A DNA stretch of 64,000 nucleotides, from positions 62,001 to 126,000 of the forward strand of contig NZ_OMPC01000006.1 of NCBI RefSeq assembly GCF_900312675.1, given 5' to 3'. This document shows, piece after piece, positions 22,667 through 29,412 of the stretch. The notes under the pieces are model-generated. The model did no database searches, had not been told where the DNA came from, and was given only the letters and a program-made list of their open reading frames with translations. Source of the stretch: Aliivibrio sp. EL58. Its GTDB lineage: Bacteria; Pseudomonadota; Gammaproteobacteria; Enterobacterales; Vibrionaceae. A program made the translations under genes and the position numbers. Each line of letters begins with the position of its first letter. The first letter of the stretch is position 1.

Positions 22667-24201
<1,535 letters not shown>

Positions 24202-24254: not shown

Positions 24255-25175
24255 TTAGTTCTTCACTTGCCTTAATGTTTCCAATACTTCAGGGTAAAAT
24301 GCCAATAAGGCATCACACTGCTTATCATTTCCACCTCGACGGATATTTTCTTGTGCTAAACCAATATCTCGGTTTCTCTTCAATGAATACGAGCCACTGC
24401 TGTAATCTGTTTTCTTACAAATAGTACCATTTCGTACCGCCATAACTTTAAGCCACAAATCATCAGTACTTGGTGCTAACTCTGTAAATCGTTCAATATT
24501 CATAACATCAGGGTGTAGAGAATGAGGTGGATAAAGAATTGAACCACAACCTGTTAAAAGAATACGGTGCGACGATTTTCCTTCTGTGAGTCCATATTTC
24601 CATTTTTTATAACGCTTAACTTCTCTTTGAGTACATAATGTTATTTCATGAGCTCGATGCCCAACGATCACACTCGGGTTACGCTTACTTTCTTGTAATA
24701 GAATCTCTAAACAATCAAATCCATACAATACATCGTCATCAATCGTTATTATGTATGATTCTGGACATAGCTCTAATGTAGGAATGATTTTTTTATATGA
24801 ACGATAGTTAGGGCAGAATCGAACTTCTAACCCTCTTTCTATCTGACGATGTAAAATATGGGGAATATTATCCATATTAAATTCCGCCTCATCTAACCAT
24901 AAAATCAAACGATTAGGACGAATGGTTTGCTGCGCAATGGATTCAATAACCAAATACACTTCATGAATTTTTTTTGAAAACGTCGTAAAGCTTACAACAA
25001 CTTCTTTCTCTAAAAAAATCTCATCCGTCGTGATCTTCTCTTTAGAGAAAAGAGCTGAAGTATGTAAGGCATCTGAGCGAATAGAACATTGAATAGTATG
25101 CTCCATCCCTCTTATATTTCTTGAAATTAGCTTTCTATCTGCTGCTAACTTTTTTATTTTTTTTATCAGCTTCAT
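24255..25175 (-). CDS. Glycosyltransferase-A-like protein of unknown specificity
   Basis: A 306-aa product. After a basic N-terminus there is VVVSFTTFSKKIHEVYLVIESI near residue 60, QTIRPNRLILWLDEAEF, and ESYIITIDDDVLYGFDCLEIL near residue 142; the aspartate triplet is the expected DxD element. TGCGSILYPPHSLHPDV and ELAPSTDDLWLKVMAV in the second half match the acceptor-site pattern seen in nucleotide-sugar glycosyltransferases of polysaccharide loci. No signal peptide. It stands alone on the minus strand beside the decayed mutM copy, which suggests insertion at the coaD-mutM junction. The substrate is unknown. Confidence 0.7.
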   Translation of the reverse strand: MKLIKKIKKLAADRKLISRNIRGMEHTIQCSIRSDALHTSALFSKEKITTDEIFLEKEVVVSFTTFSKKIHEVYLVIESIAQQTIRPNRLILWLDEAEFNMDNIPHILHRQIERGLEVRFCPNYRSYKKIIPTLELCPESYIITIDDDVLYGFDCLEILLQESKRNPSVIVGHRAHEITLCTQREVKRYKKWKYGLTEGKSSHRILLTGCGSILYPPHSLHPDVMNIERFTELAPSTDDLWLKVMAVRNGTICKKTDYSSGSYSLKRNRDIGLAQENIRRGGNDKQCDALLAFYPEVLETLRQVKN

Positions 25176-25221: not shown

Positions 25222-25508
25222 TACTGGCTAGGAACGATCACACCAAAACATATTTCATTAACCAATACAATAGTTGCGTATAACGCATTTACCAGCTAGT
25301 ATTTTTGAATGTATCTTAGCATTAAACAATGGCTCACTAACATAAATGTTACCGTCACCAACTACGATGGTAGAACTCATTATAACTTACTTAGTAACTG
25401 TTTTTTCCTTTTGCTTTTTCTTTTTCTTTTTCTTTTTCTTTTTCTTTTTCTAGTAAATAATCGGCATTGAACTCATTAGTTAAAGGCTCTAACCCTAGTA
25501 TTACCGGA
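25222..25508 (-). pseudogene. Decayed second copy of mutM (formamidopyrimidine-DNA glycosylase fragment)
   Basis: Read on the minus strand from about 25508, translation gives LGLEPLTNEFNADYLLEK, matching [18 protein letters not shown] of the intact mutM. A lysine/glutamate run encoded by a hexanucleotide tract follows, then VGDGNIYVSEPLFNAKIH (intact: [18 protein letters not shown]). After a gap of about 75 codons, a piece near 25230-25250 matches the DNA encoding FWCDKCQP at the MutM C-terminus. In-frame stops and the deletion rule out function. The N-terminal half is missing. Intact mutM lies 2.2 kb away on the same strand. Confidence 0.85.
25414..25450 (+). repeat. Hexanucleotide tract (CTTTTT)6
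   Basis: Six perfect CTTTTT units plus a final C lie inside the mutM remnant, where the intact gene has the lysine-rich EKAKNKK coding segment. Because units are six bases, length changes keep frame (Lys-Glu pairs on the minus strand). Confidence 0.95.
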
Positions 25509-25619
25509 TATATCCAAGAGAATCATTGCGCTGCCATTTAGTGTATCAATTAATAAACACTTTACTCGATGGTGAATGAATTCTTACATTTAATTCGTTA
25601 TATCTATAACAATACCAAT

Positions 25620-25656: not shown

Positions 25657-27636
25657 TTAATGAACACCTTTCACTTGACCATTAATATATAACGTTTGCA
25701 ATGTATGGTAATCATTACCTAAGTGCATTGTATCCTGTTGAATAGATTCAGGGCTTATCTCTATCCCTGACGCCCATGGATATAACTTTTCAGGTTTGGC
25801 ATTTAAATAAATACCATCTTTGGTAAACGTCATTTCTGGATTATAGCCAAATCTTGTTACCTTATCTGTCCCCAATAAATTACGCCCGCCTAAACTGTAG
25901 TAATTAGCCTCTGAAAGACTAAATGCATACAAGGTTGGAAAAATATCTTTATGCGAGCCCATTCGATTTTTATCATATTCATTGGGAACTTGCTGTTGGA
26001 TTTTCATCGGTACATATAAGTAAAATGGCACCGCATGAATAATAGGAAGATCATTAGGGTAAGACATTGTAAAGCCTCTTAAACGATGATCCCCTGTTGC
26101 AGCTATCAATGTTGAATCACCTAGTGAGGATTGTTTAATATCCGAAATAAACTCACCTAATGCATTATTGGCATATTGATAAGTTTCAGATAATCGAGTC
26201 GCTTCTTCTTTAGTAGATCGCATTCGATTCACCAAGCGTTCGCTTACCTTAATTGGTTTTACATCGTAATTTTCTGGTACTTCATAAGGAGTGTGGTTAG
26301 TGATAGTTAGGATGTAAATCATTAAAGGCTGAGTCGCTTCTTTAAGCTCTTTTTCTGCTAGTTTGAAAGCATACTCATCCGATAATCCCCATTCACCACG
26401 AAATTCTTCAGCTTCTGGAAACGCTTTTAAAATCGCATTTTCATCTAAGATCTCATCAAAGCCTTGTGATGGTAAATAATTGGCAACATTACGCCACATA
26501 CCATTGGTAGCAGTAATAAAGATCGTTTTATACCCTGCTGCTTTATAAGGGCGTACTGCCGCTGCGGCGACTTCTACTTTTTGAGCTGAAGAATGACTAA
26601 TAGTAGGAACATTACTTTGTCCTAGCATATTCACTAACGTATTAATGGTCGCCGTTGTTTCCGCTAAAAATCGCTTAAAAACAAAATCAGACTCAAAGGC
26701 TGGTCGCAATGCTCCTAATAAGTCATTTTCTGGATAGTTATCTTCAACAAGAACATTAGTTCCCATACCTTCCATTAATGCCATAACAACATGAGGTTTG
26801 TTCTCTGCTAAATAAGCATTATAGGCTGTCGTAAACTGCCCCGTAGGATTACCAACCACCTTGGTAAACTGAGCTTCAAGATCCGCTTTACCTACTGAGT
26901 GAAATTTATTCTGTTTTTTATAATCACTTTTCGCCCACTCAAGTGCGATCAATCCATTCGGAGTGATGCTGTTAAGTACTTTATAATCTGAAACTTGCGC
27001 GTGATAACGTTTTAATGGGTGAGATCCTAATGTGCCTCGAGCAAAGAAGAATATCGTCAAGATCATCACAAAAACAGAGACAGAAGTGATTCCTTTGTGT
27101 TGTGGTTTCCATTCCCATTGTTGCATTTTTCTTACTGCTATACGTACAATGATGGCAGAGAAAAAAGCAACTATCACACTACTAATAAATGATAAGAAGA
27201 TCGGGTAATCCGCCCATGCATTGGCTAATACTGCCTTGGTATCATCATCAGCTAATCCAAAGATAAATACATCAATATGATTGCCATAGGTAAGGTAGTA
27301 GTAGTAATTGCCAATGGAGAAACCAGTAACAAGAAAGAAGATAAGTCCTGCGTACCAAGGGATTATTTTCGCAAAGAAGCGATAAGCTTTTGGGACAATA
27401 GCGAGAGCCAGACCAATGAGCAATAAAGGTGCAAAACCAATCACTACTATTTTTAAATCAAAGCGTAAGCCGGTAAATAGTGCACGCCATAGATCAGTAC
27501 CTCGATGCGCAAGCTCTGTTGTGTCGACAATATTGGCTAAAAATACCAAACGGCCAACCGACAATATAATTACTGCGATAAAAACAGATAACCAAATGGT
27601 TCTACTGAGTTGTTTGAAATTTTGTTGGAAGTTCAT
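25657..27636 (-). CDS. LtaS-like membrane phosphotransferase (alkaline phosphatase/sulfatase superfamily)
   Basis: About 659 aa from the ATG at 27636, seven bases after the mutM stop; the longer frame to 27678 would overlap mutM. There are five N-terminal membrane segments to about residue 200, then an extracytoplasmic domain with VVMALMEGMGTN (metal-binding Glu), ETTATINTLVNML with a candidate nucleophile Thr, TITNHTPYEVP, and AATGDHRLRG (metal-binding Asp-His). This is the LTA-synthase-like group. In Gram-negatives such proteins transfer phosphoglycerol or phosphoethanolamine to envelope glycans, so modification of LPS or periplasmic glucan is plausible; the substrate is not determined. A terminator follows. 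Confidence 0.85.
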   Translation of the reverse strand: MNFQQNFKQLSRTIWLSVFIAVIILSVGRLVFLANIVDTTELAHRGTDLWRALFTGLRFDLKIVVIGFAPLLLIGLALAIVPKAYRFFAKIIPWYAGLIFFLVTGFSIGNYYYYLTYGNHIDVFIFGLADDDTKAVLANAWADYPIFLSFISSVIVAFFSAIIVRIAVRKMQQWEWKPQHKGITSVSVFVMILTIFFFARGTLGSHPLKRYHAQVSDYKVLNSITPNGLIALEWAKSDYKKQNKFHSVGKADLEAQFTKVVGNPTGQFTTAYNAYLAENKPHVVMALMEGMGTNVLVEDNYPENDLLGALRPAFESDFVFKRFLAETTATINTLVNMLGQSNVPTISHSSAQKVEVAAAAVRPYKAAGYKTIFITATNGMWRNVANYLPSQGFDEILDENAILKAFPEAEEFRGEWGLSDEYAFKLAEKELKEATQPLMIYILTITNHTPYEVPENYDVKPIKVSERLVNRMRSTKEEATRLSETYQYANNALGEFISDIKQSSLGDSTLIAATGDHRLRGFTMSYPNDLPIIHAVPFYLYVPMKIQQQVPNEYDKNRMGSHKDIFPTLYAFSLSEANYYSLGGRNLLGTDKVTRFGYNPEMTFTKDGIYLNAKPEKLYPWASGIEISPESIQQDTMHLGNDYHTLQTLYINGQVKGVH

Positions 27637-27643
27637 GGTTTCT

Positions 27644-28468
27644 CTATTTTGTTTTAGGTAATGGTTGGCACTTATCACACCAAAATGTATTTCGTTGCCC
27701 TATTTTCTCTTCTTGGATGAGAGAGTTGCAACTTAGGCACGGTTTATTGGCTCTACCGTAGACATGCAATCCTTGTGCAAAGTAACCTGGTTTCCCGTCA
27801 ACTTGGTTAAAATCTTTTAGGGTAGTTCCACCTTGTTTAATAGCCGTCTCAAGTACGACTTTTATTTCACTCACTAGCCTTTGTATTTGTTTTAGCTTCA
27901 ATGCGCCTACTGGTGTCTTAGGATGTATCTTTGCCATAAATAAAGATTCGCTAGCGTAGATGTTACCCACCCCCACCACAACGGCGTTATTCATAATAAA
28001 CTGTTTTACGACGACTTTTTTATTCTTTGCTTTTTCTGCTAGATAATCCGCAGTAAACGCATCGGTAAGTGGCTCTGGACCAAGTTTAGCGAGTACATCA
28101 TGTGATACGCCTACTTCAGAATATAACCAAGCACCAAATTTACGAGGATCGTTATAGCGAAGGAGTTTACCGTTATCTAATACAAGATCCACATGATCGT
28201 GTTTTGCTGGTGGGATAGTCTCATCAAGTATACGTAAACTGCCTGACATACCAAGGTGAATAATAGCTGTGCCTTCTGGGGTATCTATCATTAAATATTT
28301 AGCACGACGGCGGATGGATTGAATTCTTTGCCCTACGAGTTTTTGTAGCTCTTGTGGGATCGGCCAACGCAGCTTTTCTGTCCTCACCGTAATCGCTTTG
28401 ATTGTTTGGCCTTGTAGGTGTGGTGTTATTCCTAATCGGCTGGTTTCGACTTCTGGTAGTTCTGGCAT
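27644..28468 (-). CDS. mutM: Formamidopyrimidine-DNA glycosylase
   Basis: The 274-aa product is full-length Fpg. The N-terminal [10 protein letters not shown] carries catalytic Pro1 and Glu2. HLGMSGSLR near residue 70, the lesion-recognition [20 protein letters not shown], and the terminal zinc finger with C..C and C..C (CLSCNS, FWCDKC) complete it. It removes 8-oxoguanine and ring-opened purines from DNA. It is separated from coaD by three other elements, although the two are neighbours in many vibrios. A partial, degenerate second copy lies downstream at 25222-25508. Confidence 0.98.
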
Positions 28469-28491: not shown

Positions 28492-28672
28492 TTAAGGGAC
28501 GAGAATCGAGAACGCTTCGCTCGAGATGCGAGGAAAAACTAGAGACTATACGCGGTGCTAACTAGATCGCTTCGCTCCTATAAGATCAAAAGCAAGTGTA
28601 CCTGAAACCAATTATCCTACCACTTCAACCGTACATACTCTTATAGTTTCTAGTTAGCGAAGCGTATAGTCT
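28492..28672. repeat. Module C - A - A' repeat cluster
   Basis: Module C (GGGACGAGAATCGAG, core AACGCTTCGCT, CGAGATGCGAGG) lies just upstream of mutM. Then comes module A with variant core CGCGGTGCTA and the extra TCGCTTCGCTCC. After a TGTACCTGAAACC stretch, reverse A (CTTATAGTTTCTAGTTAGC, GAAGCG) runs into the end of the next gene. Confidence 0.83.
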
Positions 28673-29131
28673 CTAGTTTCTAAACAAATACCCTTCTTCC
28701 GCACTCACCGCTATCCATTCACCTTGCCAGTTCTGCATCATCCAAAAATTCGGTGCTTGATAAATAGTAACTCGTTGCGGCTCTTCTTGATTTTCTAACC
28801 ATACTTCTACCGTGCTTGGCGCTGGTAATTTGGTTTTGAGTACTTTCACTGGCTCTTCATTGAGAACTGTACCTTCCAGAGTAAACCAACGTTTAATCAA
28901 TTGGCTATCTGTTTTTGACGTATCGGAAGCAAGATCATAATCTGCAAAGTGCATTTTTTGGATGGCATTAACACCTTCAAATAAAGGCTGTACGCCTGTT
29001 ACCGTTTCTACTTGCTGTTCTGGTTCGAGTAAGTAGGTTTTAATTAGCTGAGGGGCTTGTAGGACACCAATGAAGAGTAATACAAAGATGATCAGCATGT
29101 TGTTGTATTTGCGGCGTGATGGTTTTTTCAT
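28673..29131 (-). CDS. Conserved-type hypothetical protein with one N-terminal membrane segment
   Basis: A 152-aa product. A basic N-terminus (KKPSRRKYNN) precedes one hydrophobic segment, residues ~12-30, so a periplasm-facing membrane anchor is predicted. The soluble part is acidic, with WFTLEGTVLNEEPV and NFWMMQNWQGEWIAVS at the C-terminal end. I do not recognise a family with known function; it resembles short single-pass proteins found near mutM/rpmG in vibrios. The last two residues (RN) and TAG stop are encoded by a module A repeat, so the native C-terminus may have been altered. Confidence 0.65.
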   Translation of the reverse strand: MKKPSRRKYNNMLIIFVLLFIGVLQAPQLIKTYLLEPEQQVETVTGVQPLFEGVNAIQKMHFADYDLASDTSKTDSQLIKRWFTLEGTVLNEEPVKVLKTKLPAPSTVEVWLENQEEPQRVTIYQAPNFWMMQNWQGEWIAVSAEEGYLFRN

Positions 29132-29149: not shown

Positions 29150-29412
29150 AATGGTTTGAGACTAGAGACTATACGCTTCGCTAACTAGACCGCTTCGCTC
29201 CTATAAAAGAAAAAAGCGAAGGTTTCAGGTTTCAGGTTTCAGGAAAATCAAAAGCGAGCACACCTGAAACCTGCAAGCGCAGCGCCCTGAAACCTAGAAC
29301 TCAAAACACCTACCATACTCGCTTTTATAGTATCTAGTTAGCGCAGCGTATAGTTTCTAGCACTTTTCCTGAAACCTCTGTGCGAAGCATCCTGAATCCT
29401 GCTCTTCCGCGC
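29150..29412. repeat. Module A - B - B' - A' cluster between the hypothetical gene and rpmG
   Basis: A (GAGACTATACGCTTCGC, CTAGACCGCTTCGCTCC), then a triplet of TTCAGGT words, then B' (ACCTGAAACCTGCAAGCGC, AGCGCCCTGAAACC), then A' (TTATAGTATCTAGTTAGC) and a last CTGAAACCTCTGTGCGAAGC. Nested inverted order. It ends at the rpmG terminator. Confidence 0.87.

Follow-up and report, generated by a model that had tools for sequence, protein, structure and literature searches.

The window, i.e. the whole stretch of 64,000 nucleotides of Aliivibrio sp. EL58 analysed in our study, contains an imported-looking block of about 1.9 kb (~23.69-25.60 kb) with coaD, a glycosyltransferase gene and the scar of a second mutM. 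The block and the native genes beside it are arranged as follows:

23680-23720: left edge of the block (approximate), a drop in identity where the native glycosyltransferase gene 22670-23719 has its 3' end
23716-24201, plus strand: coaD (phosphopantetheine adenylyltransferase), intact, a xenologous allele by identity and tree (Pfam PF01467)
24255-25175, minus strand: GT2-like glycosyltransferase, 306 aa (weak PF00535 match, below cut-off)
25222-25270, minus strand: zinc-finger end of the pseudo-mutM, codons ~259-266 (21/24 bases identical to the mutM of genome G012; tblastn)
25268-25413, minus strand: pseudo-mutM codons ~147-189, VIMSSTIVVGDGNIYVSEPLFNAKIHSKILAGK (103/127 bases identical to G012 mutM)
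25403-25451: (TTTTTC)8.2 hexamer array within the pseudogene (Tandem Repeats Finder)
25448-25502, minus strand: pseudo-mutM codons ~127-145, LGLEPLTNEFNADYLLEK (47/55 bases identical to G012 mutM)
25500-25592, minus strand: pseudo-mutM codons ~50-77, VKCLLIDTLNGSAMILLDISGN (70/83 bases identical to G012 mutM)
25593-25611: right edge of the block, where mutM similarity stops and native sequence is back within about 20 bp
25657-27678, minus strand: native gene of a sulfatase-family (LTA-synthase-like) membrane protein (91% aa identity to G011, 88% to G013, 87% to G005; PF00884)
27644-28468, minus strand: native intact mutM (95% aa identity to G011, no stops; PF01149, H2TH and zinc finger matched)

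The minus strand from ~25222 to ~25592 carries four decayed MutM segments and represents a pseudogene. With the intact MutM as tblastn query against the window, the region 25519-25291 of this strand was matched in two joined pieces (E = 5e-12), and the zinc-finger end gave a weak match at 25299-25222. Stops and frame changes are present, too, bearing out the initial annotation, which had recognised the remnant of a second mutM with stops on the minus strand. Its location was correct, but not its end: instead of stopping at 25508, the remnant reaches ~25592, i.e. 85-90 bases further, the VKCLLIDTLNGSAMILLDISGN piece (blastn 86% over 78 nt) having been missed. Likewise, the internal deletion described there exists, but mapped on the G012 mutM, of which the pieces cover codons ~50-77, 127-145, 147-189 and 259-266, there are two large ones.

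The remnant derives from the gene of the formamidopyrimidine-DNA glycosylase MutM/Fpg. In contrast to this gene, it is missing the N-terminal part as well as two stretches in its interior, contains stops and frame changes, and is unable to encode the enzyme. It begins at about codon 50 and has no continuous frame with the N-terminal Fapy_DNA_glyco domain (catalytic Pro1/Glu2); instead of a complete H2TH and zinc-finger part, only codons ~127-189 and ~259-266 are left. Most likely the remnant is passive debris with no sign of function, and the scar does nothing. Phase variation by the hexamer array was considered and rejected by reasoning: six-base units preserve the frame, and the gene has its breaks at other sites. 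The genome has one intact mutM, located about 2 kb from the remnant with the 2-kb sulfatase-family gene in between.

Over 289 alignable positions the remnant is 83.4% identical to the mutM of G012 and 65.7% to the intact mutM of the window, whereby G012 served as the alignment reference for the remnant, possibly with a slight bias toward this genome. To any other mutM in the set, the window's own included, the identity is 66.4% at most. In separate alignments the three longer pieces scored lower against eight other mutM genes than against G012; the short zinc-finger piece scored equally against the mutM genes of the window, G011 and G012. The phylogenetic placement suggested in the initial annotation has now been carried out. 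The remnant is sister to the G012 mutM (100/98), and constraining it with the intact mutM of the window (AU p = 0.00014) or with eight native mutM genes as a group (AU p 0.0003) was rejected. The remnant is not descended from the neighbouring mutM, so that the one result named in the initial annotation as speaking against its account did not occur. In the full-length mutM tree, G012 lies within the clade of the genus (100/99) as its deepest branch. Because of this position, the source of the mutM piece was a different lineage, either within the genus or closely related to it, and "foreign", as far as the sequence of this piece is concerned, means a different lineage of the genus.

The coaD gene of the block, which has a single match in its own genome, is an outlier, too. 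At the amino acid level it is 72-76% identical to the coaD of eight congeners (clade A), which share 82-98% among themselves, and it is 64-65% identical to a second coaD type of the genus. Its best match (78%) was found in other Vibrionaceae. In the coaD tree, clade A (99/94) excludes the window coaD, and a position of the latter as sister to this clade was not rejected (AU p 0.35). For the glycosyltransferase, no match at E<=1e-20 was detected in the 13 other congeners searched. Matches exist in 19 other Vibrionaceae among 297 genomes searched, with 50-53% identity in some. In a contig scan, Marinomonas vulgaris (56%) was the sole hit besides two remote loci, and a search of plasmids revealed only remote relatives, at most 40% identical.

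Both edges of the block are marked by native homology. On the left flank, the GT4 gene shows 90-91% identity to G006-G008 and is native by this measure. The DNA identity to G006/G007 is good until ~23690 and falls beyond, down to about 65-75% in a 150-bp profile; this edge sits at homologous GT4/coaD sequence. On the right, native AATACCAATAAAAAAGGCC starts at 25611, and the stop codon of the native coaD marks the beginning of the matching stretch in G001. The gene phylogeny of the block conflicts with the flanking native genes, as expected of a segment imported into an LPS locus.

In a coaBC+radC tree the window groups with G011 and G005 (100/99). The order in G005 is native coaD, sulfatase gene, mutM. 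In G011 the sulfatase gene is interrupted by a contig break; its 3' end shares a contig with native coaD, and its remaining part is found together with an acyltransferase-like gene and mutM on a second contig. The glycosyltransferase of the block was not found in G011 or G005. These nearest relatives show the ancestral (empty) arrangement expected for an imported segment and, because they lack the block, it is most simply regarded as derived in the lineage of the window.

A mutM match was obtained in 290 Vibrionaceae genomes, four of which (the genome of the window, G004, G005 and G083) contain two matches at E <= 1e-4; leaving out the second match in G083, whose assembly is 87% complete, no other separate mutM remnant was recognised in this set. 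In G004 (L030:4456-5264) a frame change splits mutM into two overlapping frames; the gene may be broken, or this may be a sequencing error. In G005 the sulfatase gene and mutM are both present twice, as intact identical copies at a distance of 32 kb (C2: L021, L022, L102, L103, L113). Its coaD occurs once in full length and as fragments at two more places (residues 99-161 near 195 kb and residues 7-122 near 283 kb), suggesting that its LPS cluster was duplicated and later rearranged.

The remnant very probably goes back to the 3' part, now decayed, of an allele of mutM from another lineage (closest known: G012), and came in as the end of an imported coaD - glycosyltransferase - mutM segment. 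The phylogeny of the remnant, the outlier coaD, the glycosyltransferase absent from the genus, the edges in native homology and the derived arrangement carry this explanation. A similar order of mutM, glycosyltransferase-family gene and coaD, which we count in its favour, exists in the Vibrionaceae genome G287; no genome was found with all three parts in order at close identity as a donor. The initial annotation had proposed that foreign DNA with a mutM end recombined between coaD and mutM. The import is supported, but the event appears to cover coaD, too. Two findings beyond the initial annotation strengthen the idea of imported DNA: coaD is an outlier, and the native sequence is back at a point which in relatives corresponds to the stop of the native coaD.

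Pairing of the incoming DNA with the recipient would have taken place around the glycosyltransferase/coaD end, and the native coaD would have been exchanged as far as roughly its stop. At its opposite end, the segment may have been joined inside the donor mutM without extended homology, so that the native sulfatase gene and mutM would have survived downstream. The glycosyltransferase was maybe retained for altering the LPS; the mutM end would have been useless and has decayed. It is a known kind of event that leaves a clear trace here, and not a working gene. This trace, polarised by close relatives, illustrates how marine bacteria may swap surface-sugar genes, with the essential gene coaD apparently replaced in passing.

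For all parts together we infer one block, one donor and one event. Against a single block stands that the nearest relatives differ (other Vibrionaceae for coaD, G012 for the remnant), and the block may be a mosaic or the product of two events. Two or more separate exchanges at a hot spot, bringing a G012-like mutM end in one and coaD and/or the glycosyltransferase in others, would agree with these different affinities, with coaD alleles varying in type across the genus (another divergent type occurs in G002-G004 and G010) and with the several contents of the mutM-coaD interval. However, all parts adjoin each other, keep the native order of genes and are bounded by native edges on both sides, and a single event is simpler. 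We regard separate exchanges as possible, but rather unlikely. The notion of an old second mutM of the genus, left as remnant here, kept as the only copy in G012 and lost elsewhere, is improbable. It would suit the deep branching of the G012 mutM and its identity of 79% to the window, compared to 91% for coaBC and 97% for radC of G012, but requires loss in all other congeners, none of which shows a separate remnant, and leaves the outlier coaD and the native resumption at the coaD stop unexplained.

A duplicated gene end beside cargo is a usual trace of mobile elements that target gene ends. Nevertheless, a mobile element targeting the 3' end of mutM and bringing a replacement end is very unlikely: coaD and the glycosyltransferase are the only listed genes of the block, neither integrase nor transposase was present among its long ORFs, no tRNA was found, and no direct repeats joining its two edges were found. 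Hardly any probability at all is left for the idea that the resident mutM was duplicated and one of the copies then decayed in situ. Remnant and intact gene represent the same gene on the same strand at a short distance, and the congener G005 does have two mutM copies, yet the tree with the remnant beside G012 contradicts such a descent, and the sister genome G011 has no second mutM copy.

Homology-facilitated illegitimate recombination has been described for Acinetobacter, S. pneumoniae and P. stutzeri and was proposed for the T6SS effector-immunity arrays of V. cholerae (PMC5361080). The segment in the window would resemble such events, with one side apparently anchored by homology, the other perhaps joined without it, and leftover gene ends beside resident genes. 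The same authors state that, in the species measured, one-sided events occur far less often than homologous recombination of the ordinary kind (PMC5361080). Unlike in these systems, a coaD-glycosyltransferase-mutM segment at an LPS locus is concerned here, and the leftover is a donor gene end. In V. parahaemolyticus, coaD is a common flanking marker of the O/K-antigen loci (PMC13251360). The exchange of O/K-antigen and core LPS genes in Vibrionaceae (PMC13251360) shares with our locus this flanking gene, the glycosyltransferase cargo and the contents varying among relatives, but the segment in the window is short (about 1.9 kb), takes in coaD itself, carries a scar and lies on the mutM side of coaD. 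Our literature searches turned up no account of such a scar at coaD.

Several kinds of content were seen between mutM and coaD across 13 genomes, whereby Pfam was used for the G010 pair only and the remaining genes were named by resemblance. Some genomes contain the sulfatase gene alone. In G011 an acyltransferase-like membrane protein gene (L018:1309-3282) is located between the sulfatase gene and mutM. G002-G004 carry a family-90 glycosyltransferase-like gene, G010 a family-90 and a family-25 glycosyltransferase, and in G012 there is no gene but about 25 bp. In G287, mutM is followed by a distant relative of the block glycosyltransferase (33% identity), two more glycosyltransferase-like genes and coaD. 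With contents varying even among close species, the interval is a good place to seek such scars. Chances are about even that it serves the Vibrionaceae as a permanent site for the exchange of LPS-modifying genes, where divergent alleles have repeatedly taken the place of the essential housekeeping gene coaD itself, with mutM ends left as occasional scars.

The second, divergent type of coaD, with about 65% identity to the remaining ones, was observed in G002, G003, G004 and G010 (L028, L027, L030 and L023), where it lies beside the family-90 glycosyltransferase-like gene; this is possibly an independent coaD replacement. On the far side of the native mutM, a 31-nt inverted repeat (28536-28679, 90% complementary, 82 nt apart) is located between mutM and the gene 28673-29131, and about 1.9 copies of a 23-bp unit are found at 29252-29295.
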